Positions 16,873 to 31,748 of a stretch of DNA of 64,000 nt are shown piece after piece; position 1 is the stretch's first letter, and each line of letters begins with the position of its first letter. The DNA is from Bryobacterales bacterium (GTDB lineage: Bacteria > Acidobacteriota > Terriglobia > Bryobacterales > Bryobacteraceae): assembly GCA_003167255.1 (NCBI GenBank), contig PMTR01000148.1, positions 1-64,000 of the forward strand, written 5' to 3'. The position numbers and the translations under genes are program-made. The notes beneath the pieces were generated by a model, which made no database searches, was not told the origin of the DNA, and was given only the letters and a program-made list of their open reading frames with translations.

Positions 16873-16932
16873 TCATCGCGGACGATGGGATTGCACAATG
16901 CGTTCGTCCCGGTACTCGTCGATATATTTCAT
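16873..16932 (-). pseudogene. hypD: N-terminal remnant of hypD
   Basis: The ATG at 16932 overlaps the hypC stop as ATGA, the usual hypC-hypD junction. It encodes MKYIDEYRDERIVQ, which matches the conserved beginning of HypD, then loses all similarity and stops after 19 codons. Full HypD is about 360-380 residues and is needed for making the Fe(CN)2CO group of [NiFe] hydrogenases. Only the first 14 codons or so survive, so the hyp operon was broken here. A working copy must be elsewhere if the hydrogenase matures. Confidence 0.75.
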
Positions 16933-17201
16933 GGCATTCGCGGCTCCGGCTGGCTTGCCGCGCCCAGTTCTTCTTCGAGTAGCCCCATCTCTTCCAGCAG
17001 TCGGTACGTGCGTGCGGCCTCTTCGGCGTCCACACGGCTGATGGCAAAGCCGACGTGCACCATGACGTAATCGCCCACCTGCGCTTCGGGAACGAAGTTC
17101 AAGAAAACCTGGCGGGCAATGCCGCCAAACTTCACTTTGGCGATGCGGCTGCCGTCGCGCTCTTCCGCCTCGATGATTTTACCCGGCACTGCCAGACACA
17201 T
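16929..17201 (-). CDS. hypC: HypC-type hydrogenase maturation chaperone
   Basis: A 90-residue protein with the invariant N-terminus MCLAVPGKI, whose Cys2 takes part in carrying the Fe(CN)2CO precursor. It is followed by VKFGGIARQVFLNFVPEAQVGDYVMVHVGFAI, typical of HypC/HybG. In the family it shuttles between HypD and the hydrogenase large subunit. GGGGAGG precedes ATG 17201. It is the last intact gene of the hydrogenase cluster. Confidence 0.95.
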   Translation of the reverse strand: MCLAVPGKIIEAEERDGSRIAKVKFGGIARQVFLNFVPEAQVGDYVMVHVGFAISRVDAEEAARTYRLLEEMGLLEEELGAASQPEPRMP

Positions 17202-17282: not shown

Positions 17283-17876
17283 TTATTGCCCCGGTTGGGG
17301 CGGCTGCCGGGACTCCATTTGCGCCCGCTGGTAAAAACAATTGCGCGGGACGAGCTGGCGCACCAGGCAGTGTTCCCGGAAATAGATTCCGCAGTTGAGG
17401 CACAGCTCCCGCGGGTTCGAGGTGTGGTCCACGATGTCCGCCGAAAGCCGGTCCAGCAGTTCGGAAGTGCGCCGCAGCTCTTCCGGCGGAAACTGGACGA
17501 AGACACTTTGGAGCTTGCGCTGGCGGGCGCTCTCATAGGCCGTGAGCAGCCGCAGGCCGGCCTCGGTGAGGCGGAGGTGCATGACGCGCCGGTCCTTCAG
17601 GTCCCCGGTGCGCCGCAGCAGGTCGCGCCGCACCAGGCGGTCGACCGCCTTACTGGCGGCCGCATTGCTGACCCGGAGAAACGAAGCCACATCGCCGAGC
17701 GTGTAGGCATTCGTCATGGCCACCAGTTTCAGCAGCTTCATTTGCGAAGCCGTGACCTGCCCTTCGGACGCTTTGTCCAGCAGCCGCTGCTCGATAATGT
17801 CGGCGACGGCGGATGCGAAAACATGCGCGCTTCCCAGGAAATCGTCGATCTCTCGCAGGCTGCGGTCGCGCGTCAT
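17283..17876 (-). CDS. MarR-family regulator with a four-cysteine C-terminal tail
   Basis: A 197-residue winged-helix regulator. The MarR core covers about residues 15-150, with YTLGDVASFLRVSNAAASKAV as recognition region and DLKDRRVMHLRLTEAG as the wing. The unusual part is the tail: C159, C162, C170 and C180 in a C-x2-C-x7-C-x9-C pattern, which could bind an iron-sulphur cluster or zinc. It lies inside the hydrogenase cluster between the maturation protease and hypC, with AAAGGACC before ATG 17876, so it probably senses redox state or metal and controls this cluster. The ligand is inference. Confidence 0.85.
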   Translation of the reverse strand: MTRDRSLREIDDFLGSAHVFASAVADIIEQRLLDKASEGQVTASQMKLLKLVAMTNAYTLGDVASFLRVSNAAASKAVDRLVRRDLLRRTGDLKDRRVMHLRLTEAGLRLLTAYESARQRKLQSVFVQFPPEELRRTSELLDRLSADIVDHTSNPRELCLNCGIYFREHCLVRQLVPRNCFYQRAQMESRQPPQPGQ

Positions 17877-17918: not shown

Positions 17919-18512
17919 TCAGAAGTTCGCTAAGGTATTCCGGCCCTCCGCTCCCTTACGGTCGCGGCTCGGTGCGGACGGCCGCGGGCTCGCGTCGAAG
18001 TACTCGCGCGCGACCCATCGGGCGGCCTCCGGCACGGCGCGCTGAACGGGTTCGGATAACCCGGGACAGACTTCCGCGGGCAAGGGGCCGGTCTGGCAGG
18101 CGAGCACTCGTACTTCGACGCCGGTCTGTTGTTGCAGCTCGCGCAGCATGTTGGATGTGGGCAACTGGTGCATGGAAAAATCGTCCAGTTTGACCACGGG
18201 GATGTCGGCCGGGTTCAGTTCGAACCACTCACCCGGCTCCCGGCCGACATCCACCGCGTCCAAAATCAGCAGCCGGCGCGGGCGCACCTGGCTGAGGCAA
18301 AGCGTGAACAAAGGCAGGCGCACGCCCGTTCCGGCGTCCAGGATGCAAACGCCGCCGGGCACATCGAAGTGCGTCTCCAGGTATTCGACCAGCGCGCACC
18401 CGAAGCCGTCATCGCCGAAGAAAACGTTGCCGATGCCGAGGATCAGCACCGGCTTCGTGCAAAAGTCGGGAACAGCGTCTTCTTCCCTAATTGGCATGAC
18501 GGCTTCCGGCAC
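17919..18512 (-). CDS. [NiFe] hydrogenase maturation protease
   Basis: A 197-residue protein of the HyaD/HybD/HycI peptidase family. GIGNVFFGDDGFGCALVEYL holds the nickel-sensing Asp/Glu motif, and ILDAVDVG contains the second acidic ligand. These proteases remove the C-terminal tail of the large subunit after nickel insertion. The neighbouring large subunit has such a tail (25 residues after His454). The last 20 or so codons of this gene come from a mobile repeat (17949-17970), so the original C-terminus was probably shorter. Confidence 0.92.
   Translation of the reverse strand: MPEAVMPIREEDAVPDFCTKPVLILGIGNVFFGDDGFGCALVEYLETHFDVPGGVCILDAGTGVRLPLFTLCLSQVRPRRLLILDAVDVGREPGEWFELNPADIPVVKLDDFSMHQLPTSNMLRELQQQTGVEVRVLACQTGPLPAEVCPGLSEPVQRAVPEAARWVAREYFDASPRPSAPSRDRKGAEGRNTLANF
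17949..17970. repeat. CGCTCCCTTACGGTCGCGG repeat, copy 2, inside a coding region
   Basis: This copy lies in the 3-prime end of the maturation protease gene, where it encodes SRDRKGAEGR on the minus strand. Compare copy 1 at 17248-17269. Confidence 0.7.
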
Positions 18513-18521
18513 GGCGCGACC

Positions 18522-19961
18522 CTAGTTTGCGAGCGTATCGAGCAAGCTGCCCTGGGCATCGAAGATGTCCAGCTTCACCGACATCTTTCCGTCCAGCCGG
18601 TGCGTGGCGCAGGACAGGCACGGGTCGTAGGCGCGGATGGCCATCTCGACCGTGTTCAACACGCCCTGATCGTATTTCCCATCGTGGATCAGGCTTTTGG
18701 CGGCCTGCGTCACCGACAGATTGATGGGGGCGTTGTTATGGGTGGTCCCGACGATCAGGTTCATGTTGGTGAGCATGCCGTCGGCGTCGGTCTCGTAATC
18801 GTGAATCAGCGTGCCGCGCGGCGCTTCCGTGCAGCCGACTCCGCGCGCGGCGCGCGGCGTCACTTTCACGCGAGTCTCCAGGCTGGTAATGTCCGGATCG
18901 TCCAGCAGGCGGATGGCGTTTTCCGCGTTATAGAGGAGCTCGATCAGGCGGGCCCAGTGGTACAGCAGGGTAAGCTGCGCCGGGCGGCCGAACTTGCGCC
19001 GGAATTCCTCGAGCTCGGCTTGCGCCAGCGGGGTGTCGATGAAATCGCAAACGTTGATGCGAGCCAGGGTGTTGGCGCGGTACAGGCCGGGCGCGTTATC
19101 TTCCAGCGAGAAGGCGCCGCGCTTCTTGGCATACGGGAACTTCAGGTAGCTCCACGGCTCGATGTGTTCCCCGATGAACTCGGTGTACCGGTCATAAGCG
19201 AAATCGTCGAAGGAGCCGTCGCTGGCCATCAGGCGCAGCTTGCCGTCATAGAGATTGAGGGCGCCGTTCTCTTTGACGGTGCCGATGAATCCGCTGGTGA
19301 TGACGCCCAGCGACTTCACCACGTCGAGGTACTTGGGGAAGACGCTCTCTTTGGCAAAGGCGATGGAGAACTTGGCCAGTTCCAGCGCCTCATCGGCCAT
19401 CTTGCGCAACTGGTCGCGTTCGTCTTTGGCCAGCGGCTTGCTGAAGCCGCCGGGAACGGCGGCCTGCGGGTGGATGGCCTTGCCCGCGATAATCTCGAGC
19501 ATTTTGGCGCACATGTGGCGCACGCGGACCACGCGCCGGGCCACCTCGGGCGCGGCTTGCAACACGCCGATGACGTTGCGCACCGAATAATCGGCATCCG
19601 GACCCAGCAGGAAGTCGGCGCCCGCCAGGAAATAAAAGTGCAGGATGTGTTCTTCCATGTAGGCGATGCTGTTGCACAGCTCGCGCAGTTTGGCCCCGGC
19701 CGGCGGCGGAGTAACCCCGAACACGGCGTCGCAAGCCTTGGCTGCCGCCAGGTGGTGCGACCACGGGCAGACGCCGCAAATGCGTGGGGTGATGCGCGGC
19801 ATGTCTTCCACAGGCCGTCCCATGCAGAAGCGCTCGAACCCGCGCAACTCGATGACATTCACCCGGGCCAGGTTGACGTTGCCGGTATCATCCAGTTGGA
19901 TGGTGATCTTGGCGTGGCCCTCAATTCGCGTCACAGGCTGAATTACTATGGTTTTTCCCAT
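18522..19961 (-). CDS. mvhA: [NiFe] hydrogenase large subunit, MvhA-like (group 3c type)
   Basis: A 479-residue catalytic subunit. The nickel ligands sit in L1 RICGVCPWSH (C62, C65) and L2 DPCLSCATHRL (C448, C451). The RIEGH motif is near residue 12. After His454 there is a 25-residue tail for the maturation protease encoded next. The sequence style (short L1 flank, LGPDADYSVRN, SCATH end) fits F420-non-reducing Mvh-type hydrogenases that pair with HdrA. It oxidises or evolves H2 in the cytoplasm. The phylogenetic group call is by eye. Confidence 0.93.
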   Translation of the reverse strand: MGKTIVIQPVTRIEGHAKITIQLDDTGNVNLARVNVIELRGFERFCMGRPVEDMPRITPRICGVCPWSHHLAAAKACDAVFGVTPPPAGAKLRELCNSIAYMEEHILHFYFLAGADFLLGPDADYSVRNVIGVLQAAPEVARRVVRVRHMCAKMLEIIAGKAIHPQAAVPGGFSKPLAKDERDQLRKMADEALELAKFSIAFAKESVFPKYLDVVKSLGVITSGFIGTVKENGALNLYDGKLRLMASDGSFDDFAYDRYTEFIGEHIEPWSYLKFPYAKKRGAFSLEDNAPGLYRANTLARINVCDFIDTPLAQAELEEFRRKFGRPAQLTLLYHWARLIELLYNAENAIRLLDDPDITSLETRVKVTPRAARGVGCTEAPRGTLIHDYETDADGMLTNMNLIVGTTHNNAPINLSVTQAAKSLIHDGKYDQGVLNTVEMAIRAYDPCLSCATHRLDGKMSVKLDIFDAQGSLLDTLAN

Positions 19962-19964
19962 GGT

Positions 19965-20888
19965 TCACCTCTTGGGCGCCGGCCGCAGGCGGCCCGCACC
20001 GGAAAATCGATTGAAAGTAGCGGCCCGGTCCGGAATCTGTTTCGGATCGAGACCAATAGTAGAAAGCGCGCCCATCATGTCGACCATGGGATTGGCCTTC
20101 TCCGAGATCGGTCCAAAGCACCCTTCGCAGGGCATATAAGCGCGGATGCAGCGCGGTGTGCCCTCACTGCCGCCGCAGCCGGAGCGTGTGGCCGGACCGT
20201 TACACAGAAATCCCTGTTCCATGAAGCAGCGCATCTGGGTCAGCGGAGCGCCGGGGGTGAAGTCGACCGGCTCAAGCCGCCGCCGCAGAGTCGAGGTGGC
20301 CTTCTTCTCGCGGATGGTGGGGCATTCGTCGCATACGCTCTTGGTCGACAGCGTAAATGGGCGGCCTTCCAGCAAGGCGGTGAGCGCGCCCGCGACCATT
20401 TCCGGCGTGGTGGGGCAGCCGGGCAGGATCATATCCACCTTCACCACTTCGCTGATGGCGTACACACGATCGGTCAGGGCCGGGATATCCTCGTGAGGGA
20501 ATCCATTCTTGTCGGTGGTGACGCTCTCGCGGTAGACCTTGGTCATCAATTCTTCGGTGGTGGACAGGTTGGCCAGCGCGGGGATGCCGCCATAACAGGC
20601 GCAGGACCCCAACGCGATCAGCGTTTTGCATTTCCGGCGCATCTCCTGCGCCAGCAGCTTGTGCTCCTCGGTGCGGATGCCGCCGGAGATGAGGCCCACG
20701 TCCGCTTCCGGAATTTCCATTTCCGTTTTTTCGCCGGTCTGGCCAAACAGCTTATGGTCCATCAGCACCGGCATGTGAACAATCTGCACTTTCTCCAATA
20801 AGTCCAACAATGGTTCACCGATATCGAGGATTGTCACCTCGCATCCGCCGCAGATTGTGAACCACTCCTCGGCTAGTCGAGCTGCCAT
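19965..20888 (-). CDS. mvhG: [NiFe] hydrogenase small subunit, MvhG-like
   Basis: A 307-residue electron-transfer subunit without a Tat signal, hence cytoplasmic. C13 and C16 in WFTICGGCEV with SCACYGG and LPGCPTTPE are the proximal [4Fe-4S] ligands. Further cysteines (SVCDECPT, QGFLCNGP, SGCGG, RCIRAYMPCEGCFGP) bind the medial and distal clusters. It passes electrons from the nickel site to MvhD. It ends 3 bases before the large-subunit gene, and AAAGGAC precedes ATG 20888. Confidence 0.93.
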   Translation of the reverse strand: MAARLAEEWFTICGGCEVTILDIGEPLLDLLEKVQIVHMPVLMDHKLFGQTGEKTEMEIPEADVGLISGGIRTEEHKLLAQEMRRKCKTLIALGSCACYGGIPALANLSTTEELMTKVYRESVTTDKNGFPHEDIPALTDRVYAISEVVKVDMILPGCPTTPEMVAGALTALLEGRPFTLSTKSVCDECPTIREKKATSTLRRRLEPVDFTPGAPLTQMRCFMEQGFLCNGPATRSGCGGSEGTPRCIRAYMPCEGCFGPISEKANPMVDMMGALSTIGLDPKQIPDRAATFNRFSGAGRLRPAPKR

Positions 20889-21013: not shown

Positions 21014-21211
21014 TTAGCCAGGCTGTTCCACAGCCACTTTCTTTACTTCTCTTCTGGTATACGCGAGGAATTTTCCTTCCTCTTCTACAATCTCTGTTTC
21101 GAAGCCCTCACTCTGGTAACGCGAAACCACCTGGTCGACAGCCTCCTTCGAGAGGCATGCCTGCCCATCCCATATATATTTCCTGCCGTTCACAATTCGA
21201 TAATTCGTCAT
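21014..21211 (-). CDS. 65-residue protein between MvhD and hydrogenase genes
   Basis: A small soluble protein beginning MTNYRIVNGRKYIWDG, charged and without cysteines or membrane segments. GGGAG precedes ATG 21211. I do not recognise a family. Its place between mvhD and mvhG, on the same strand and flanked by hairpins, suggests either an accessory of the complex or a cargo gene. The sequence looks like genuine protein (balanced composition, good start site). Confidence 0.65.
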   Translation of the reverse strand: MTNYRIVNGRKYIWDGQACLSKEAVDQVVSRYQSEGFETEIVEEEGKFLAYTRREVKKVAVEQPG

Positions 21212-21264: not shown

Positions 21265-21696
21265 CTACGTTTTGTACGGGCTGGGACCCAGCCGCTTGAT
21301 TTGGTCGGTGAACTCCGTCATCAATTTGGCGAACTGCGGCCCCTCGGACGCCGATACCCACGCCAGTTTGAATCTTTCCTCCTCAATTCCGAAATCCTGG
21401 AGCATGAGGGTGATGGCCTCGGCCCGCCTTTCCGCTTTCAGATTTCCTTCCTGGTAGTGGCAATCGCCGGGGTGGCATCCACACATGACCACGCCGTCGG
21501 CGCCTTTCGTCAGAGCTTCGATCACCAGGTTCGGATGCACCATTCCCGAACACATCACCCTGATGATCCGCACGTTGGCCGGGTACTGGCAGCGCGATAT
21601 GCCGGCCAGGTCCGCGCCCGCATACGAACACCAGTTGCAAGCCAGCGCCAGAATGACCGGCTCATACTCCTGCTCTACCGCCAAACCCGTGCTCAT
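21265..21696 (-). CDS. mvhD: MvhD-type electron-transfer subunit
   Basis: A 143-residue iron-sulphur protein. Cysteines C20, C23, C36, C49, C72, C74 and C79 lie in ALACNWCSYAGADLAG, RVMCSG and MCGCHPGDCHY, the MvhD pattern. It carries electrons from the hydrogenase small subunit to HdrA. The frame extends upstream into hdrA, but ATG 21696 overlaps the hdrA stop (ATGA) and gives the family start. Confidence 0.92.
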   Translation of the reverse strand: MSTGLAVEQEYEPVILALACNWCSYAGADLAGISRCQYPANVRIIRVMCSGMVHPNLVIEALTKGADGVVMCGCHPGDCHYQEGNLKAERRAEAITLMLQDFGIEEERFKLAWVSASEGPQFAKLMTEFTDQIKRLGPSPYKT

Positions 21697-24600
21697 GCCA
21701 CCTCCAGCGCGGCGGCCACTTGCGCCGCCAGTTGCTCCGGCTTGAAGCCCCTCACCACAATGCCCCCCTTGGGGCAGGTAGCCTGGCACGTGCCACAGCC
21801 CTTGCACAGGCTCTCGTTCACTTCAACGGTCTTCTTGACGGACCCGCCTCTGACGTATTCGATCAGCGACAGCGCCTTGTAAGGGCAGGGATCGACGCAG
21901 TAGGCGCAGCCGTCGCAGTTTTCGTCCACCACGAACGAAATTGTGCCCTCCAGCTCCACATAGTCCTTGCTCAGAATCGCGCTGGCCCGGGCCGCCGCAG
22001 CCTGGGCCTGGATGATGGTTTCCTCGATCGACTTGGGTGCGTGCGCCAGGCCGCAAACAAAAACGCCGTCGGTCGCGAAGTCCACGGGCCTGAGTTTCAT
22101 ATGGGCTTCCAGGAAGAAGCCGTCCTGGTTGCGCGGAATCTTCAGGAGTTGCGCCGTCTCCTGGTTTCCGTGGTCCGGCACAATGCCGGCCGAGAGCACC
22201 ACCAGGTCGGCCTCAATCCGGATTTCCCGTTCCAGCAGCGGCGCGTAGACGGTTACGGCCAGTCGTCCGTCGTTTTTCGCCACCTCCGGCTTTCGGTCTT
22301 CCTCGTATCGCAGGAAGACAACTCCCTGTTCCCGCGCTTTGGAATAATATGACTCCCGGAAGCCGTAGGTGCGGATGTCCCGGTACAGGACATAGACATT
22401 CGCGTTGGGATTCTGCTGCTTGATCTTCAGGGCATTCTTGACCGCCTCAGTGCAGCACACGCGCGAGCAGTAAGGCCTTTCCTTGTCGCGGGAACCCACA
22501 CACTGGATCATGACGACGGTGCCCGAAATCCCACTCTGGCCCCGGTCGCTCAACCTGGATTCCAGATCCAATTGGGTGATGACCTGGGCGCAGCTTGACA
22601 GACGACAAGAACCGATCGTCTGTCCCACCTCATTTCCGTACCCGTATTCCTTGGGCTGGTAAAGGCCAGCGCCGGTCGCGACGATCACCACTCCATGCTC
22701 GACCGTCTCGACGCCGTGGCCGTCGGAAATGGTGGTTTTGAAATGGCCGATGGAACCGTCGATGGCCGTGATCCTGGACTCGGTAAATACGTGAATATTC
22801 TCGTCGCCGCTCACTTTCCCGATCAGGTCCGTCAACTCTTCCTGAGGCTTCTCGCCGTTGAGCAGGTAGCGGATGCGCCGCAGATTTCCACCCAACTCTT
22901 TTTCCCTTTCGACCAGGTACACCGGGACGCCCTGCGAGGCGAGCTCCGTGGCGGCTACCATGCCGGCCAGCCCGCCGCCGATTACCAGGGCCGCTTTCTC
23001 GATCGACAGCTTGCCCTTCCGGAGAGGCTCGAGCAGCCGGGACTTGGCGACCGCCATGCGGACCAGGTCCTTGGCCTTCCGGGTGGCCTTCTCGTGCTCC
23101 TGCATGTGCACCCAGGAGCACTGATCGCGGATGTTGGCCATCTCGAACAGGTAAGGGTTGAGCCCGGCTTCGCGACAGGTGTTCCGGAACAGGGCCTCAT
23201 GCGTTCGCGGCGAGCAGGACGCCACGATCACCCGATTCAGATCGTGGTCGCGTATCTGTTGCTTGATCCGATCCTGGGTGTCGTTCGCACAGGTATAGAC
23301 ATTGTTCTCCGCATACACAACGTTATCGAGCGTCCTGACATATTCGACCACGCTGGGCACATCCACCACACCGGCGATATTGCTTCCGCAGTGGCAGACA
23401 AAAACTCCGATTCGGGGCGGCTGCCCGCTGACGTCGATTTCGGGAGGATATTCCTTGACTGCGATCTGCGAGCCTCTGGCTTCGCTCAGGAGCGCCAGCA
23501 CCTTGGCCGCGGCCGCGGACGCCTGCATCACGGTTTCCGGGATGTCCTTGGGCTCGGTGAAAGGCCCGCCCACATAGACCCCCTCCCGCACCTGCGCCGG
23601 CGCGAAAACAGAAGTTTGGCAGAAGTTGAATTCGTTCAGCTTCATGCCAAATAGGCCGGCCAGGCGCTTGGCGTCACGGGGCGCCTGCATTCCAGTCGAG
23701 AGGACCACAAGGTCGTATTCGCGGGCCTTCTTGCGGTCCCCGTCGCCGAGGTAATGGATGGTCAGATTTCCGGTCTCGGGGGTCTCCTCGATGGATGCCG
23801 GCCGGGACCTTATATAATTGACTCCCCGGCCCTTCGCGCGCTCATAGTACCCCTCAAAGCCCTTGCCGAATGCGCGCAAGTCCATGTAAAAGATGTCGCA
23901 CTCCACGCCCTCGCCGACATGTTCCTTGGCCATCAGCGCTTCCTTGGTGGCGTACATGCAGCAGACGCTGGAGCAGTAGTCGCGCTCACAATCCCGCGAA
24001 CCGACGCACTGGATAAAGGCAATCCGCTTCGGCTCCCGATGGTCGCCGGGGCGCTGAACGTGGCCGGAATAAGGCCCGGATGCGGACAGGATCCGCTCGA
24101 ACTCCAGCGCCGTGATGACGTTCGGGAAGCGGCCATAGCCGTAGCGCGGCAGCGCTGCCGGATCGAAGGGCTCAAACCCCGGCGCCAGCACCACCGCGCC
24201 GACCTTCACCTCCCGATGCTCTTCCTGCATGCCAAAATCGATCGCGCCGGCTTCGCACGCGTCGGCGCACATGTGGCAATCGGAGCAGATGCCGCAACTG
24301 AGGCAGCGATGCGCTTCGGCCACGGCCTGTTCCTCGCTGTAACCGATCTGAACCTCGTCAAAGGATTTGGCCCGCTCGGCGGGCGCAAGCTCCGGTACTG
24401 CAACCTGCCGCTGCGTCTGCCAACCGGCCGTATCGACCACGTACTCGGTGGGATATGGGCCTTCGAGCTCGCGTCCCGCCCGCAGGTCCTGGCCGTTGAG
24501 CCAGCGGTCGATCGAAATCGCGGCCTTCTTGCCGGCCAGCATGGCTGTTACCACCACGTCCGGACCGGTTACGCAATCGCCGCCGACGAACACGCCCGCG

Positions 24601-26174
24601 ACGGCGGTCTCCAGGGTGACGGGGTCGGCGCGAAGCGTACCCGATTTTGTCGCATCCAGCCCTAGCCGTTCCCCCAGTGTCGCTACGTCCGGTGTTTGCC
24701 CGATGGAGACGATGCACGTATCGCAGGGGAGAACAAACTCCGAGCCGGGAATCGGCTGCGGAGCCGGCCGTCCGCTCGCGTCCGGCGCGCCGAGCCGCAT
24801 GCGAACGCACTGCAAACCCGTCAGGGGCCCGTCTGCCGCCGCCTGGAACGCGCTCGGCGCGGCGAGGACTACCAGCTTCACGCCCTCGTGCTCGGCATCT
24901 TCGATCTCGCGCGCATTGGCCGGCATTTCAGCCCGCGTGCGCCGGTATACCAGGGTGACGTGCTCGGCTCCGCAGCGGAGCGCCGTACGCGCCGCGTCGA
25001 GCGCGGAGTTGCCGCCGCCAATCACCAGCACACGGCGGCCGACTGCTTGCGGCCCTTCCAGGTTCACGCGCCGCAGAAACTCCAGGCCGCCGATTACGCC
25101 CGGCAGGTCTTCGCCCGGCACCGAAAGCCGGCGCTCGAGGTGGGCGCCGATGGCGACGAACACGGCGGCGTATTGCCGGCGCAGCTCCTCGAAGGCGATG
25201 GCCCGGCCGACAGGCGTATCCACGCGGATCTGGATGCCCAGGGCGCTCAGCCGCTCCAGCTCGGCATGCAGCACCGGCCGTGGCAGCCGGAACGAGGGAA
25301 TACCTACCGCCAGCATCCCGCCGGCCACCGGTAACGCCTCAAAGACTACGGGTTGATAGCCCTTCTGGCGAAGGTGGTAGGCACAAACCAGTCCCGCGGG
25401 CCCGGAGCCGACAACCGCAATCTGCTCGGGCCGCTCCACGCTCGGCTTGGGGAACTGGTAATCGGGACGCCGATCGGTCACGAAGCGCTTCAGCGCCGGC
25501 ATGTTGATCCGGTCGTCCACAGTCCGGCGGGTGCAGGCGGTGCCGCAGGGATGCGTACAGATCCGGCCGCAGATGGACGGGATGGGATTGTCCCGGAGGA
25601 TGACCGCGAGCGCCTCATCGAAACGGCCTTGCGCCACCAGCGCGACGTATCCCTGCGCGCTCTGGTGGATGGGGCACGCTGCCTGGCACGGAGAGGCGCC
25701 GCGCCTGGAAATCGCAAAAACATTGGGAACCGCTTGCGGGAAGGGCCGGTAAATGGCCTTACGCTGGCCCAATCCGAAATCGAACTCGGAGGGCAGCGTC
25801 ACCGGGCAGGAATTGGTGCACAACCCGCAGCCGGTGCACCGGGTCTCGTCCACGAACCGCGGACGCCGCTTGACGGTGATCGCGAAGTTCCCGGCGTGCC
25901 CCTCTACCCGTTCCACATCGCTGAGGGTGAGGATCTCGATATCGCGATGGCGGCCGATCTCCACCAGGCGAGGCGCCATGGTGCACATGGCGCAGTCGTT
26001 GGTAGGGAAGGTCTTATCGAGCTGAGCCATCCTGCCGCCGATGGCGGACTTGGTCTCCACGAGATAAACCTTGATGCCCGCGTCCGCCAGATCGAGCGCG
26101 GCCTGCATCCCCCCGATGCCACCGCCCACCACCATCGCGGCGCCCACAGCGGAGTTCCGATCCTGGGCATTCAT
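21693..26174 (-). CDS. hdrA: giant HdrA-type flavoprotein: split HdrA + NADPH-binding GltD/NfnB-like insert + second HdrA
   Basis: A 1493-residue flavin/iron-sulphur hub. Residues 1-155 are an HdrA/QmoA-like FAD domain start (GGGIGG, CTGCGLCTNSCP). Residues 156-585 are a GltD/NfnB-like module with its own Cys-rich head (SPCQAACPIHQ, CGRICTHPCGTAC), FAD site VVGSGPAGL, and NADPH motifs VIGGGNSALDAA and YRRTRAEMPA. Residues 610-900 resume HdrA (CLSCGICSDC, CVGSRDCERDYC). Residues 920-1493 are a full second HdrA starting GVFVCHCGSNIAGVVD and ending in two ferredoxin motifs (CDGCAYCVDPC, CKGCGTCQATC). Known HdrA proteins bifurcate electrons at FAD. Here H2, NADPH, ferredoxin and the QmoC quinone site could all connect. 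No HdrB is present. A hairpin repeat encodes about residues 1180-1195. ATGA overlaps occur on both sides. Confidence 0.9.
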   Translation of the reverse strand: MNAQDRNSAVGAAMVVGGGIGGMQAALDLADAGIKVYLVETKSAIGGRMAQLDKTFPTNDCAMCTMAPRLVEIGRHRDIEILTLSDVERVEGHAGNFAITVKRRPRFVDETRCTGCGLCTNSCPVTLPSEFDFGLGQRKAIYRPFPQAVPNVFAISRRGASPCQAACPIHQSAQGYVALVAQGRFDEALAVILRDNPIPSICGRICTHPCGTACTRRTVDDRINMPALKRFVTDRRPDYQFPKPSVERPEQIAVVGSGPAGLVCAYHLRQKGYQPVVFEALPVAGGMLAVGIPSFRLPRPVLHAELERLSALGIQIRVDTPVGRAIAFEELRRQYAAVFVAIGAHLERRLSVPGEDLPGVIGGLEFLRRVNLEGPQAVGRRVLVIGGGNSALDAARTALRCGAEHVTLVYRRTRAEMPANAREIEDAEHEGVKLVVLAAPSAFQAAADGPLTGLQCVRMRLGAPDASGRPAPQPIPGSEFVLPCDTCIVSIGQTPDVATLGERLGLDATKSGTLRADPVTLETAVAGVFVGGDCVTGPDVVVTAMLAGKKAAISIDRWLNGQDLRAGRELEGPYPTEYVVDTAGWQTQRQVAVPELAPAERAKSFDEVQIGYSEEQAVAEAHRCLSCGICSDCHMCADACEAGAIDFGMQEEHREVKVGAVVLAPGFEPFDPAALPRYGYGRFPNVITALEFERILSASGPYSGHVQRPGDHREPKRIAFIQCVGSRDCERDYCSSVCCMYATKEALMAKEHVGEGVECDIFYMDLRAFGKGFEGYYERAKGRGVNYIRSRPASIEETPETGNLTIHYLGDGDRKKAREYDLVVLSTGMQAPRDAKRLAGLFGMKLNEFNFCQTSVFAPAQVREGVYVGGPFTEPKDIPETVMQASAAAAKVLALLSEARGSQIAVKEYPPEIDVSGQPPRIGVFVCHCGSNIAGVVDVPSVVEYVRTLDNVVYAENNVYTCANDTQDRIKQQIRDHDLNRVIVASCSPRTHEALFRNTCREAGLNPYLFEMANIRDQCSWVHMQEHEKATRKAKDLVRMAVAKSRLLEPLRKGKLSIEKAALVIGGGLAGMVAATELASQGVPVYLVEREKELGGNLRRIRYLLNGEKPQEELTDLIGKVSGDENIHVFTESRITAIDGSIGHFKTTISDGHGVETVEHGVVIVATGAGLYQPKEYGYGNEVGQTIGSCRLSSCAQVITQLDLESRLSDRGQSGISGTVVMIQCVGSRDKERPYCSRVCCTEAVKNALKIKQQNPNANVYVLYRDIRTYGFRESYYSKAREQGVVFLRYEEDRKPEVAKNDGRLAVTVYAPLLEREIRIEADLVVLSAGIVPDHGNQETAQLLKIPRNQDGFFLEAHMKLRPVDFATDGVFVCGLAHAPKSIEETIIQAQAAAARASAILSKDYVELEGTISFVVDENCDGCAYCVDPCPYKALSLIEYVRGGSVKKTVEVNESLCKGCGTCQATCPKGGIVVRGFKPEQLAAQVAAALEVA
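22597..22629. repeat. hairpin repeat inside the hdrA coding sequence
   Basis: GACAGACGA (22597-22605), loop CAAGAACCGA, TCGTCTGTC (22615-22623). It is 31/33 identical to the intergenic copy at 7261-7293. In the hdrA frame it encodes VGQTIGSCRLSS. HdrA proteins normally run straight from a YGYG-type motif to VITQL-type sequence here, so it reads as an in-frame insertion into a loop of the second HdrA module. Confidence 0.85.
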
Positions 26175-27328
26175 GCTGTCTTTTCCTCCAGGGTCATTTC
26201 AGCATCCAAGGCCCTCTCTTTCACCGCGGCAAAGTAGAGCGCCAGAGGACGATAGAGCATGTGCGACGAACCTCCGAACGGTATCTCCACCAGGAGCATC
26301 GGAACCGCAATCATGAGGTGAACGGCGTAAGCATAATCGGCGCCTAACCCCAGTCCCGCATACCTGAGAACATGCACCACCATTCCGCTCAAGGCTGTCA
26401 GAAGCAAGAGCACCGGCAGCATCAGATCGCGCAACCCGGACTGTCGGTAGATCGGTTGGCGCTTCCTGGCCCGCTCGATCAGAATGTCGAGCGAACCTAA
26501 GGCCAGAAAGGCAAAGGCCATGTAGCCGAGCCATCTTTGCGGGTTATAAACCGGGTATATTTTGTCGGTCTGGAACCATTGCAGGAAGAAAAACTTGATT
26601 ACGAACATCAGGCAGCATCCAAACGCGAGAAGCCAATGCATGGTCCAGCGCCGCTTCCGCATGGTTGCGGGACACTTCAGGATCTGCTTGTGCGTGACCA
26701 TCTGCAGAAACATGGTCTTGGCTTCGGCCAGATAGAATTTCAGAGGAATGGCCGCATGGGGGCCGTGATTCATGGTGAGGGAGACCATGCGCGCCACGTG
26801 AGTAGCAATGAAGAACGCCGAGAGCAGGAAAACTGCCACCGTAAAATATGCGATCCTGCCGAACATGTGCTCCAGCCCCATGGCGGTGGAGCGAAAAACG
26901 GAAAGTTCCAACTGCACGACATACAGGTGGTAGAGAACGATGAGCGCCAGCACCAGGGCTGCTACAAATGAGAGTGCCCCTATTTCCCACGCCGGTGAAC
27001 GGCAGATTCTTCGAGACAAGCCGGTCCAGTCGTACTGCGCCGTCAGATAACGCCGGAGCGTCTTCATCGACTCCCGGGGTTTTGCTTCTCTCGGACAAGT
27101 GACCGAACAATCTCCGCAGTCATGACAGAGCCATGGATCGAGGCTCTGGTGCACGGAGTCCTTCAATCCCAACACCACGGATTGCATGGTTCTGCGAGGA
27201 AACGAAGCTGAATCGGTCGCGAGGTCGCAATCAATTGTGCAGCTACCGCAATTGAAGCAACCGCGTGCGTTGAAGACACCGTATCTGCGGACTTCGGCTA
27301 GCAGTGAGGGATCAGACGTTTCTGTCAT
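26171..27328 (-). CDS. qmoC: QmoC-like membrane subunit (HdrC-type Fe-S domain fused to cytochrome b-like domain)
   Basis: A 385-residue protein. The N-terminal cytoplasmic domain has two [4Fe-4S] motifs (C24, C27, C30, C34 and C68, C71, C74, C78). About six membrane helices follow, with histidines suited to heme b or quinone binding (VLYHLYVV, FIATHVARM, MNHGPHA, MHWLLAFG, VVHVLRY). This HdrC-plus-HdrE layout is that of QmoC in the quinone-interacting Qmo complex of sulphate reducers. Here it would link HdrA to the menaquinone pool. Its stop is coupled to hdrA (ATGA), and its start overlaps a short upstream frame. Confidence 0.88.
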   Translation of the reverse strand: MTETSDPSLLAEVRRYGVFNARGCFNCGSCTIDCDLATDSASFPRRTMQSVVLGLKDSVHQSLDPWLCHDCGDCSVTCPREAKPRESMKTLRRYLTAQYDWTGLSRRICRSPAWEIGALSFVAALVLALIVLYHLYVVQLELSVFRSTAMGLEHMFGRIAYFTVAVFLLSAFFIATHVARMVSLTMNHGPHAAIPLKFYLAEAKTMFLQMVTHKQILKCPATMRKRRWTMHWLLAFGCCLMFVIKFFFLQWFQTDKIYPVYNPQRWLGYMAFAFLALGSLDILIERARKRQPIYRQSGLRDLMLPVLLLLTALSGMVVHVLRYAGLGLGADYAYAVHLMIAVPMLLVEIPFGGSSHMLYRPLALYFAAVKERALDAEMTLEEKTA

Positions 27329-27531
27329 ATCAGGCCCGTGCGATGGTTCAGGAGAGCTGGTTCCCAGTCATCCGGCGGCAGGTAATGTCCGACTGGCGCG
27401 GGAGTGAGGCCCATGGCCGGCGCGAGTTTACTTCCTGCCGTGGAGCGATTGCCTTGCAAGCTGGCGTTGGGGGAGGCGGTGGGCAGGCGGGCGAGAAAGG
27501 CACCTTCCCCAGTATTGGCCGGCTGCGCCAT
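27325..27531 (-). CDS. possible 68-residue coupled leader gene of the hydrogenase operon
   Basis: An open frame from ATG 27531 ends in TGA that overlaps the qmoC ATG exactly as ATGA. qmoC itself has no ribosome binding site, so it may depend on translation of this frame. The product has no cysteines, no membrane helix and no recognisable family; the tail PDDWEPALLNHRTGLI looks protein-like. An internal start near 27412 is also possible. It could be a real small subunit, a regulatory leader or chance. Confidence 0.35.
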   Translation of the reverse strand: MAQPANTGEGAFLARLPTASPNASLQGNRSTAGSKLAPAMGLTPAPVGHYLPPDDWEPALLNHRTGLI

Positions 27532-27901
27532 GAGCTTTCGCGCCTCTCAGGTCCTATAGATCCCGTAGTGCCGGCCCACCCCGGGTTCCGGGCAACGTAA
27601 TTACCCCGGTCAAAGGTTAACCTGATTAACTATTTCACGCCTCATTCAGTCTGTCAATGCTTTTTCCCACGTTTTTTATGCACAAATTGATGAGAAATTC
27701 AGCAAGAGACCTTAAACTCTCAAATTACGCCCGCTGGGGGTAGTTCAAGCGCCTGTCGTGTAGTATTTCCCGACAAGTTAGCCGGTTAGGGAACGCATAA
27801 TCGGATATACAGACCCCTCAATCCTATGTTGTGTCGGAATTTGCGTCAAGTTGTGAAAAAACTCTGTTCAGAAATCCAATTTGGATGTACGCTCCCAATA
27901 T
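27532..27901. promoter_or_regulatory. AT-rich divergent control region of the hydrogenase operon and a lipoprotein gene
   Basis: After a GC-rich part, the stretch from about 27600 to 27830 is clearly AT-richer than its surroundings. It contains a GGTTAACC palindrome followed by TGATTAAC (27617-27633), a possible operator for the MarR-type regulator encoded in the cluster. No clean promoter boxes could be fixed, and no gene is seen. It should hold the promoters for both divergent transcripts. Confidence 0.4.
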
Positions 27902-29424: not shown

Positions 29425-30648
29425 TCAGGTCCTGGCGCTGTGGAGCCACCGGATGATCAGCCAGAGGCCTGCCATGGTGACGAGAATGGCCGCCAAAGAA
29501 GTGGCCAGGCCCATGCGCCGGATATTCTTCTCTTTCAGCGCGGCCTCTCCGGCCCGGTAATCCTCGGCGGCGATGGCCAGGCCGGCCTGAACCGGCTGGC
29601 TCACCGCCTGGATCGCAAAGGCGTGTACATTGGCGCGGGCTTTCACCAGGTTCTGGCGTGCATCCGTTTGGCGAAGGATGGCCTCCGAAACCTCAATCCC
29701 GGAAGTCCGGGCCTGCTCGAGAATCGCATCGGCGGCGGCGATCCTGCTCTGGAGATCCTGTATCAGGCCGGCCGCTTGGGCGGCGGTCTTCCCGCCGGCC
29801 GAGTCAGGGTCGTGGCATTCGCCGCACACCGCGTTCTTGCCTCCCAGCAACTGATCGGAGGTCTTCAGGATGGCGTGGTTGCTATGGCAGACCACGCAGG
29901 TGCCGGCGGACATAGCCGCAAACGCGGGCTGGTGGGGGCTCTTGTCGAAGAGCTGCTCCTCAAAAACGTGACACGTCCCGCACACCGCGGCGACCGAAGA
30001 AACCGCTGGCGGTTTGGCGCCGTGATTGCCGTGACAAGTGGCGCAGTTGGGCGCCGAGAGATCGCCGCGCTTGGACAACTCCTCCCAATGCACGCTCTTC
30101 AGATAATCGGCGTACTGATTGGTGGGGATTTTGTACGGGGCCATGTGGGCCGCGTCCGCATGGCAATGCGCGCAGGTCTTGGGGAGGTTCAGCGGGTACA
30201 CCGGTGACAAAGGGTCGCGGGCGGCTCGAATATCGTGGATGCCGTGGCAATCGATGCAGGTGGCCACCGCGGCGTCGCCCTTGGCCAGGTGCTGGCCGTG
30301 GACGCTGGTCGCATATTCGGCATTCTGGTCCACTCGCTCCGAGGGGTTATATTTCCGCATGAAGTTCGGATTGCTGTGGCAACGGGCGCAGAGTTTCGGC
30401 ACTGCCGTCCGTGGGGGCACACCGGCGAATCCGTGGGCCTTGCTCATGGAGGCGTCCGGATCGTCCGAATTGGGGTCGCCGCCGTGGCAATCGGCGCACG
30501 TGAATCCATGCTGGAAGTGCACGCTACTTTGAAATGCCGACGCCGGCGCCTGGAGGTCGCCCGTCATTTGGGAGTGGCACTCCAAACAGGAATCCTTTCC
30601 GGGCAACCGGGCGGCCGCCAGCAGGAGGAGGAGGAGTGCGTACTTCAT
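29425..30648 (-). CDS. membrane-anchored nine-heme c-type cytochrome
   Basis: A 407-residue exported cytochrome. A signal sequence (MKYALLLLLLAAARLPGKDS) is followed by nine CxxCH heme sites (CLECH, CADCH, CARCH, CIDCH, CAHCH, CATCH, CGTCH, CVVCH, CGECH). A helical stretch and one C-terminal membrane anchor (LATSLAAILVTMAGLWLIIR) complete it. The start at 30648 overlaps the cytochrome b stop (ATGA). As the third gene of a Rieske/cytochrome b operon it is the likely electron exit of a quinol-oxidising complex. It resembles multiheme cytochromes of the NapC/NrfH and cytochrome c7-type families only in the heme motifs. Confidence 0.9.
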   Translation of the reverse strand: MKYALLLLLLAAARLPGKDSCLECHSQMTGDLQAPASAFQSSVHFQHGFTCADCHGGDPNSDDPDASMSKAHGFAGVPPRTAVPKLCARCHSNPNFMRKYNPSERVDQNAEYATSVHGQHLAKGDAAVATCIDCHGIHDIRAARDPLSPVYPLNLPKTCAHCHADAAHMAPYKIPTNQYADYLKSVHWEELSKRGDLSAPNCATCHGNHGAKPPAVSSVAAVCGTCHVFEEQLFDKSPHQPAFAAMSAGTCVVCHSNHAILKTSDQLLGGKNAVCGECHDPDSAGGKTAAQAAGLIQDLQSRIAAADAILEQARTSGIEVSEAILRQTDARQNLVKARANVHAFAIQAVSQPVQAGLAIAAEDYRAGEAALKEKNIRRMGLATSLAAILVTMAGLWLIIRWLHSART

Positions 30649-31748
30649 CGCAGATACCCCAGCAGGGAAAATGTCGAGAGATAGGCCAGAAACGCCACTG
30701 CACCACCGGTCACCAGTTTGGATCGCACAGTCCCATCGGGGCGCGCTCCCCAAAACGGGAGTGCGGCCCACCAAAATGCCAGCAGGCCAAAACCCAGGAG
30801 CCCGACGACCTCCCCTTCCATGCCCGCCACGTGGCCGGGTATCAACTTCAGGGTGTAGAACGGCGCCAGAAAATACCACTCCGGCCGAATCCCCGCGGGA
30901 GCGGAGGCAAACGCATCGGCCTTCTGGCCCAATTCCCATGGAAACACAGCCGCTAATATTCCCAGGAGTGCGAGAGCGCCATACCAGACCATGAGCTCAT
31001 GCAGAAAAAAATCAGGGAAGAACGGCATCTGCGGCGGGCGAGTGCCGGCGCCGCGAGACCGCTTTTCCACCCAGGGAGGCGTACTGATGCCGAACTTCTG
31101 GACTAACCCCAGGTGGAAGAGCAGGAATAGCGAAGTGAGGGCGGGCAGCACAGCCACGTGGAATCCGAAGAACCGGGTTAGCGTGGCGCCGCCCACGGCG
31201 TCACCTCCGCGCAAATAGCGGCCCACGGTCGAGCCCATCCACGGAATAAACGTGGCCATATCGGTTCCGACTTTGGTGGCAAAAAACGAGATGGTATTCC
31301 AGGGCAGGAGGTAGCCGCTGAATCCGAAGCCTAGCGCGAGGGCCAGCAGCACGATGCCGCTGAGCCATACCAGCTCGCGCGGCTTCCGGTAGGCGTGCAG
31401 AAACGCCACGCTAATCATGTGGACGAAGGCCGACAGGATCAGCAGGTTCGCCGACCAAATGTGGATCGACCGGATCAGCCAGCCGAAAGCCACACGGGTC
31501 ACGATGAACTGGACGCTCTCGTAAGCTTCCGAGGGGGTGGGTCGGTAGTACACCAGCAGCAGAATGCCGGTGACCACCTGGATCACAAACAGGAACAGTG
31601 TGATACCGCCAAAGGCGTACCAGATGGTGCCCGAGTGGACGGGCACGGTTTTATGCGCGATGAACTCGCGGACGGAATCCCACGCCAGCCGGTCTTGAAA
31701 CCATGCCGCGATTGCTTTCCTGCGAGGGCTTGGTTGGATGGGGAGCAT
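30645..31748 (-). CDS. cytochrome b subunit of a bc-type complex
   Basis: A 367-residue integral membrane protein with about eight helices. It contains the heme-b histidine regions (SIHIWSANLLILSAFVH and FGFHVAVLPALTSLFLLFH), GYLLPW, and the quinol-site motif PEWYF in the C-terminal part, so the b6 and subunit IV parts are fused as in bc1 cytochrome b. It would oxidise menaquinol and pass electrons to the Rieske protein and the adjacent multiheme cytochrome. Transcribed after the Rieske gene with a 15-base gap. Confidence 0.92.
   Translation of the reverse strand: MLPIQPSPRRKAIAAWFQDRLAWDSVREFIAHKTVPVHSGTIWYAFGGITLFLFVIQVVTGILLLVYYRPTPSEAYESVQFIVTRVAFGWLIRSIHIWSANLLILSAFVHMISVAFLHAYRKPRELVWLSGIVLLALALGFGFSGYLLPWNTISFFATKVGTDMATFIPWMGSTVGRYLRGGDAVGGATLTRFFGFHVAVLPALTSLFLLFHLGLVQKFGISTPPWVEKRSRGAGTRPPQMPFFPDFFLHELMVWYGALALLGILAAVFPWELGQKADAFASAPAGIRPEWYFLAPFYTLKLIPGHVAGMEGEVVGLLGFGLLAFWWAALPFWGARPDGTVRSKLVTGGAVAFLAYLSTFSLLGYLR

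Follow-up and report, generated by a model that had tools for sequence, protein, structure and literature searches.

Winged-helix regulators gated by an Fe-S cluster or another metal are already known, and three of them, ChlR, ArnR and SufR, offer the mechanisms that appear nearest, by analogy, to that of the MarR protein studied here. ChlR of cyanobacteria is described as a MarR-fold protein with a [4Fe-4S] cluster that serves low-oxygen genes and recognizes a palindromic operator, TTMCC-N3/4-GGWAA, which is broadly like the TTAACC-n-GGTTAA of the family reported below; its cluster is thought to be held by the N-terminal Cys18 and Cys25, two ligands per monomer, and it acts as an activator of tetrapyrrole genes (PMC4500134, PMC13421787). 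ArnR of Corynebacterium has a MarR/ArsR-like winged helix followed by a C-terminal sensory domain in which three conserved cysteines (179, 193 and 223) form a [4Fe-4S] site; it controls nitrate respiration genes, is found almost only in Actinobacteria and binds DNA in its cluster form (PMC12343034). SufR, which belongs to another family and controls Fe-S biogenesis, is a repressor for which three [4Fe-4S] ligands, C164, C171 and C206, are listed (PMC13421787).

The protein considered here is encoded by a marR gene in a 64,000-nucleotide stretch of a Bryobacterales contig that was analysed as a whole and is called the window (Table 1). Pfam HTH_27, MarR and MarR_2 all score above their gathering thresholds in the 197-aa sequence, with 38.2 bits for PF01047 against a cut-off of 24.6, which assigns the protein to the MarR superfamily by its domain. 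The AlphaFold2 model is confident over the core, and Foldseek matches it to the structures of YusO and MexR with a probability of 1.00. The nearest named relatives of the protein are from Bryobacterales and Terriglobia (Acidobacteriota). Unlike ChlR, it has no N-terminal cysteine and carries a C-terminal four-cysteine tail instead; unlike in ArnR, the four cysteines lie within 22 residues, and their x2, x7 and x9 gaps also set the tail apart from SufR, with which it was compared by spacing. The zinc repressors AdcR and ZitR have a MarR core as well, provide the best NCBIfam match of the window protein and occur among related PDB sequences, but AdcR_fam_Zn_TF reaches 45.4 bits against a cut-off of 175 and this alignment stops at residue 147, short of the cysteine tail. 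By the sequence features tested, the window protein is a MarR protein outside the ChlR, ArnR, SufR and AdcR/ZitR groups.

Table 1. Features of the marR operon and its predicted control region in the window
Feature	Position	Strand	Remarks
hypC, hydrogenase maturation chaperone	16929..17201	-	
marR	17283..17876	-	197 aa, MarR/winged-helix regulator with C-terminal four-cysteine tail
C-x2-C-x7-C-x9-C tail motif, codons 159-180	17337..17402	-	invariant in 41/41 rows of alignment A2
hycI, hydrogenase maturation protease	17919..18512	-	
mvhA, [NiFe]-hydrogenase large subunit	18522..19961	-	best NCBIfam match VhuA, below cut-off
mvhG, hydrogenase small subunit	19965..20888	-	best NCBIfam match VhuG, below cut-off
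mvhD (FlpD)	21265..21696	-	Pfam FlpD; start from codon-scored gene caller
hdrA, 1493 aa, inserted GltD-like NAD(P)/FAD domain	21693..26174	-	Pfam and NCBIfam
hdrC/qmoC-like, first operon gene	26171..27328	-	best NCBIfam match qmoC, below cut-off
Predicted operator O2, CTTTGACCGGGGTAATT on minus strand	27599..27615	-	exactly 16 bp from O1
Predicted operator O1, AGTTAATCAGGTTAACC on minus strand	27615..27631	-	rank 2 of 63,984 window positions, leave-one-group-out matrix
Possible sigma-70 promoter, TTGACA (27657-27652), 17-nt spacer, AATAGT (27634-27629)	27629..27657	-	consensus scoring only

The original prediction placed this gene inside a hydrogenase operon, and that setting holds. Reading along the minus strand from 27328 down to 16929, the order is hdrC/qmoC-like, hdrA, mvhD, mvhG, mvhA, hycI, marR and hypC, with hycI and hypC as the immediate flanks of marR and the remaining five genes upstream, all on the minus strand. 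The domain inserted in HdrA resembles GltD/PRK12771, is NAD(P)-binding and sits between the HdrA parts. A separate hdrB was not seen in this hdr-mvh operon. There is also a 65-aa ORF with a low caller score between mvhD and mvhG (21017-21211, minus strand), and upstream of the operon, at 29425-31748 on the minus strand, are ORFs that on a look at their sequence are cytochrome-b-like and multi-haem c-type.

The tail, CLNCGIYFREHCLVRQLVPRNC, reads C159-x2-C162-x7-C170-x9-C180, as had been predicted, and holds the sole cysteines of the protein. A protein search of 200 same-family genomes returned 30 strong matches (E <= 5e-11), and all 26 proteins extracted from them, the window's included, have exactly this spacing; that set leaves out L036, L054, L055 and one 69-residue fragment, of which L036 has the exact tail, L054 differs by x6 in its second gap and L055 lacks the tail. 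A wider scan of ~85,000 species genomes, which was seeded on the recognition-helix peptide, confirmed by tblastn with the protein and overlaps the first set in its genomes, gave 47 loci. The family is present at 39 of them (L062-L100) with 40 proteins, every one of exact spacing, and the other eight (L101-L108) encode distant MarR proteins. When 396 Acidobacteriota genomes were searched with a profile, eight of them gave matches at family level (E below 1e-30); four of the eight loci fetched are exact, one being the window itself, two are cut by contig ends (L112 and L113), and two have x8 in the last gap (L115 and L116). A few divergent relatives depart from the exact spacing. The family extends over four phyla, Acidobacteriota, Gemmatimonadota, Latescibacterota and Actinomycetota, and conservation of the cysteines in homologues, which had been put forward as the check, is complete in the aligned members from these phyla. 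In the 41-row alignment A2 the tail cysteines make up four of the 14 invariant columns, and no column but theirs reaches 90% in the tail alignment A3, which took 33 of the 41 rows. The prediction that ordinary MarR proteins lack such a tail also stands, since the exact pattern is found in 0/49 MarR-like ORFs outside the family; L163 was left out of the tail and context controls because it lies on the contig of a family member. Judged from these searches and alignments, the four-cysteine tail is beyond chance. Different cysteine-rich C-terminal tails, possibly independent metal tails, are seen in the Acidobacteriota MarR-like proteins L032, L132 and L162, and yet another cysteine-rich end in L137, which like L132 and L162 is outside the family among the 49 ORFs. 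In the open-licence literature, as far as its accessible text goes, no description of a C-terminal four-cysteine MarR tail beside Hdr or hydrogenase genes was found.

The surroundings of the family are wider than the original prediction implied. Gene contexts come from a home-made, codon-scored gene caller combined with clustering and Pfam; calling by the length and recurrence of ORFs was rejected because it picked antisense ORFs. Five kinds of module emerge: (a) HdrA-MvhDGA-HycI-Hyp in the window, L063, L064, L066, L085 and L098, with Hyp genes only in L062; (b) HdrC-HdrB-HdrA-like, with or without MvhDGA, in L067, L068, L072, L088, L090 and L092; (c) ETF-HdrD-like-HdrA in L069, L071, L093 and L095; (d) AprB, plus AprA-QmoABC, DsrA-like and Sat as far as the contig reaches, in L074, L076, L079, L081, L082 and L086, five of which have a tetrapyrrole methylase upstream; and (e) NuoE or NuoE/NuoF in L070 and L073. 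From the same-family search, L054 also has an Fe-hydrogenase domain protein nearby, and the MarR gene of L065 sits before genes for DUF362 and an Fe-S membrane protein. In the tree, modules (d) and (e) form one clade each and (b) and (c) need at least two origins, while a single origin of (a) may be compatible with it. When at least one of 17 query proteins was sought by tblastn (E up to 1e-15), redox-complex neighbours were found at 26/39 family loci and at 1/19 control loci with ordinary MarR genes of the same bacterial family, a contrast somewhat favoured because part of the queries were themselves taken from family loci. HdrA is the sole match at two of the 26, at L080 through a GltD-like flavoprotein and at L099 in a way that looks alike from its neighbours by eye, and it is likewise the sole match at the one control locus with a hit. 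The other 13 of the 39 loci, mainly some from Gemmatimonadota and a deep clade beside bacHORMA/AAA genes, have none of the queried redox genes. The family is therefore not tied to hydrogenases, with Apr-Qmo-Dsr, ETF-Hdr and Nuo genes also flanking members of the family.

A predicted palindromic operator, about ATTTAACCnGGTTAAAT, recurs upstream at the family loci. A clear motif did not come out of dyad counts with exact half-sites; a palindromic mixture model applied to 26 non-redundant upstream regions gave one, about AnTTAACCnGGTTAAnT, with a log-likelihood of 68.0 for W17 (23.6-35.7 in 12 dinucleotide shuffles) and 59.7 for W16 (23.7-34.8 in 12 shuffles); 120 random starts were used for the real set and 60 for the shuffles. 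Training began from 43 marR upstream regions, without the six that fall short of 90 bp (L062, L064, L066, L085, L098 and L036) and without a duplicate of the shared L073 region; the start of L071 was set by hand for its re-entry, and the region upstream of hdrC in the window joined the set. The 37 regions that remained were cut to 26 by hand-made groups, and the scoring matrix was built from the 15 best of the 26 motif sites. With each group left out in turn, the tested upstream region contained the top site of its whole locus in 21/37 cases, against 0.7 expected, and in the other 16 its best site was not rank 1. In 15 of 22 loci the first site has a partner at a distance of exactly 16 bp, and no other spacing between 5 and 45 bp is seen in more than one locus; the 22 were hand-chosen because each had a good site and include some close relatives (window/L064, L090/L092 and L093/L095). 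Good sites outside the matrix were found in the divergent promoter before mvhG (L085 and L098), before the gene preceding marR (L068 and L072) and before hdrC in L064, a close relative in which this promoter is the same as that of the window and has an identical O1. At nine of the 25 loci scanned there is no site scoring >=9.5 before marR or the operon (L062, L063, L065, L066, L079, L082, L086, L036 and L054); the contig of L063 does not contain the operon start. In this way computation supports the conservation of the tail, the gene contexts, the operator and the 16-bp tandem rule.

In the window, the target proposed originally was 27532-27901, and the best tandem operator of the genome is indeed predicted inside it, at 27599-27631. 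The possible promoter upstream of hdrC overlaps O1 and O2. Allowing up to three mismatches, the O1-O2 tandem occurs once in the whole 7.35 Mb host genome and the reversed-pattern control zero times. The looser single-site pattern occurs at six places, as does its reversed control, so that in this genome the tandem alone is informative. One strong single site, C118:20599, which lies where one ORF ends and shortly before another begins, has no tandem partner and was taken as chance. The stretch from 27400 to 27598 on the minus strand forms a leader between the operators and hdrC, and six further copies of the operator-leader stretch, with 78-95% identity, occur in the same bacterial family; as a candidate structured RNA, the leader matched no Rfam family at the gathering score and folded no better than its shuffles.

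Related genomes with and without the regulator bear on whether the protein may act at these sites. Besides the window's own genome, five of the 237 same-family genomes searched have strong matches to the promoter-leader region, in six copies, and 28 further ones have short weak matches only. The family regulator is present in the genomes G060 and G107, and both operators are kept as in the window in G060 and in the copy G107a; between the window and G060 the -35 element is also identical and the -35/-10 spacer varies. O1 is identical in G060, G107a and G020 and lost in G001. In G001 (98% complete) the operon is present, only a 22-residue remnant is left at the marR position after hycI (L189 4105-4170), no family regulator was found elsewhere in the genome, and O1 has a 3-base deletion and substitutions. 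G049 (84% complete) has also kept the operon, with marR absent after hycI and not found elsewhere; its O2 has a 1-base gap and further changes, and its O1, with two changes, still scores 18.4 despite the loss of the regulator. G020 keeps both operators and is uninformative either way, because its contig stops within mvhA and does not reach the position of marR. In these small numbers, with G049 giving a mixed picture, operator decay together with marR loss has the direction expected if the protein acts at O1/O2. The remaining copy, G107b (L192 5215-5464), is a stray promoter-leader copy whose O1 is weakened and which precedes a large unrelated ORF.

We infer binding of the protein to these sites, repression, a tail metal, its [4Fe-4S] identity, the signal and the direction of the switch, and put the probability of the resulting model, an autoregulatory MarR repressor gated by the tail metal site and acting at O1/O2, at roughly one half. 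MarR dimers, probably two side by side, would bind the abutting palindromes at 27599-27631, overlap the likely promoter and block transcription of hdrC-hdrA-mvhDGA-hycI-marR-hypC. The four-cysteine tail after the last core helix would bind a metal cofactor, most likely an oxygen-sensitive [4Fe-4S] cluster, whose state would set the affinity for DNA. The apo or oxidised protein would repress, and in an anoxic cell with Fe-S clusters to spare the loaded protein would release the DNA. The cell would then spend on the costly Fe-S-rich electron-bifurcating or sulfate-reducing complexes only under conditions that allow their maturation and function. In a study of anoxic peat microcosms, the upregulated acidobacterial genes include sulfur-metabolism enzymes and group 1 and 3 hydrogenases (PMC6018796), which fits this mechanism, though the study does not concern the present regulator.

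What the tail holds is the point on which the readings differ most. The original prediction of an Fe-S cluster stays plausible, and the tail probably binds a metal or an Fe-S cluster, but no known domain covers it: Pfam gives nothing above threshold over the tail of the window protein, where the sole match is GATA at 19.7 bits against a cut-off of 26.8, tail profile searches of PDB and Pfam give no match above threshold, and the AlphaFold2 pLDDT at residues 151-190 is only about 52-61, so that the model does not resolve the tail. The weak profile resemblances are mostly to zinc fingers, including GATA matches in 14 of the 33 tails scanned and one between the first half of the tail and ORF59a, a zinc-finger protein (E 0.44); together with the CxxCG knuckle and with the appearance of ZitR and AdcR, both zinc regulators, among the MarR structures that PDB sequence searches return, they speak for a structural zinc site, a small knuckle-like fold that would stabilise the dimer or contact DNA or a partner, with a small molecule in the usual MarR pocket as the signal. 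We consider this unlikely, as all these zinc-finger matches are below threshold, only one CxxC knuckle is present with the other two ligands single and widely spaced, and a structural zinc would leave the association with Fe-S-rich modules unexplained. By analogy, [4Fe-4S] is the more likely content because of the gene context and the precedents of ChlR, ArnR and SufR. The cysteines could instead form a metal-free disulfide or persulfide switch that senses oxidants or sulfane sulfur. One clade is found within apr-qmo clusters, which also show sat and dsr on contigs that extend far enough, a setting in which sulfide and polysulfide would be available, and the MarR protein OhrR is described as regulated by cysteine oxidation and YodB as a thiol switch (PMC12506092), but four invariant cysteines of fixed spacing fit a four-ligand site better than a one- or two-cysteine switch and most family contexts are outside sulfur metabolism, which makes a thiol switch improbable. 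That the tail merely docks another protein, such as an Hdr subunit or a maturation factor, would suit the position of marR beside hycI and hypC; we give it very little weight, since neighbours of genes with the same tail have no single partner in common.

The direction of the switch is a separate matter. We favour repression because the operators lie at the likely promoter and the operon survives loss of the regulator, and the operon kept in G001 and G049 is a better fit to a lost repressor than to a lost activator. On consensus scoring alone, the best-scoring -10 element occupies one of two fixed places on the operator array, starting at -3 or +13 of the operator start, in 11/21 loci, with the others at -54 to +51; the AT-rich operator ends may draw such calls. 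The polarity could be the reverse, since ChlR with its [4Fe-4S] cluster is described as activating genes in low oxygen (PMC4500134, PMC13421787), and in 3/21 loci the best-scoring promoter is off the operator unit; a protein with the same DNA target whose loaded form activates under anoxia is nevertheless a minority reading in our estimate.

How HdrA-type bifurcating complexes, group-3 hydrogenases and Apr-Qmo-Dsr are switched on in uncultured Acidobacteriota and Gemmatimonadota is, to our knowledge, little known. With this family the question of control becomes directly testable, as it supplies a concrete regulator together with an operator that can be read from the sequence and a predicted sensor. 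No report of a regulator of this kind for Hdr/Mvh/Apr-Qmo modules was found in the open-licence literature, within its accessible text. Beyond the window, we tentatively propose, at somewhat less than even odds, that the proteins form a cross-phylum family of Fe-S-cluster MarR repressors for Hdr-Mvh, Hdr-Etf, Nuo/[FeFe] and Apr-Qmo-Dsr operons, which would sense anoxia or Fe-S supply through the C-terminal four-cysteine cluster and act at tandem operators spaced by 16 bp. If so, MarR proteins would have a C-terminal route to an Fe-S site beside the N-terminal one of ChlR, and operons of very different pathways would have one regulatory logic in common.

Two further details of gene arrangement were noted in the family. 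In the deep clade (L096 7567-9523, L099 7545-9480, and also L097 and L100), the MarR gene is divergent from a gene set that in L099 includes bacHORMA_2 and an AAA ATPase, an unexpected context. In L073 (8990-10597), from a Latescibacterota genome, two divergent family paralogues have one intergenic region in common.
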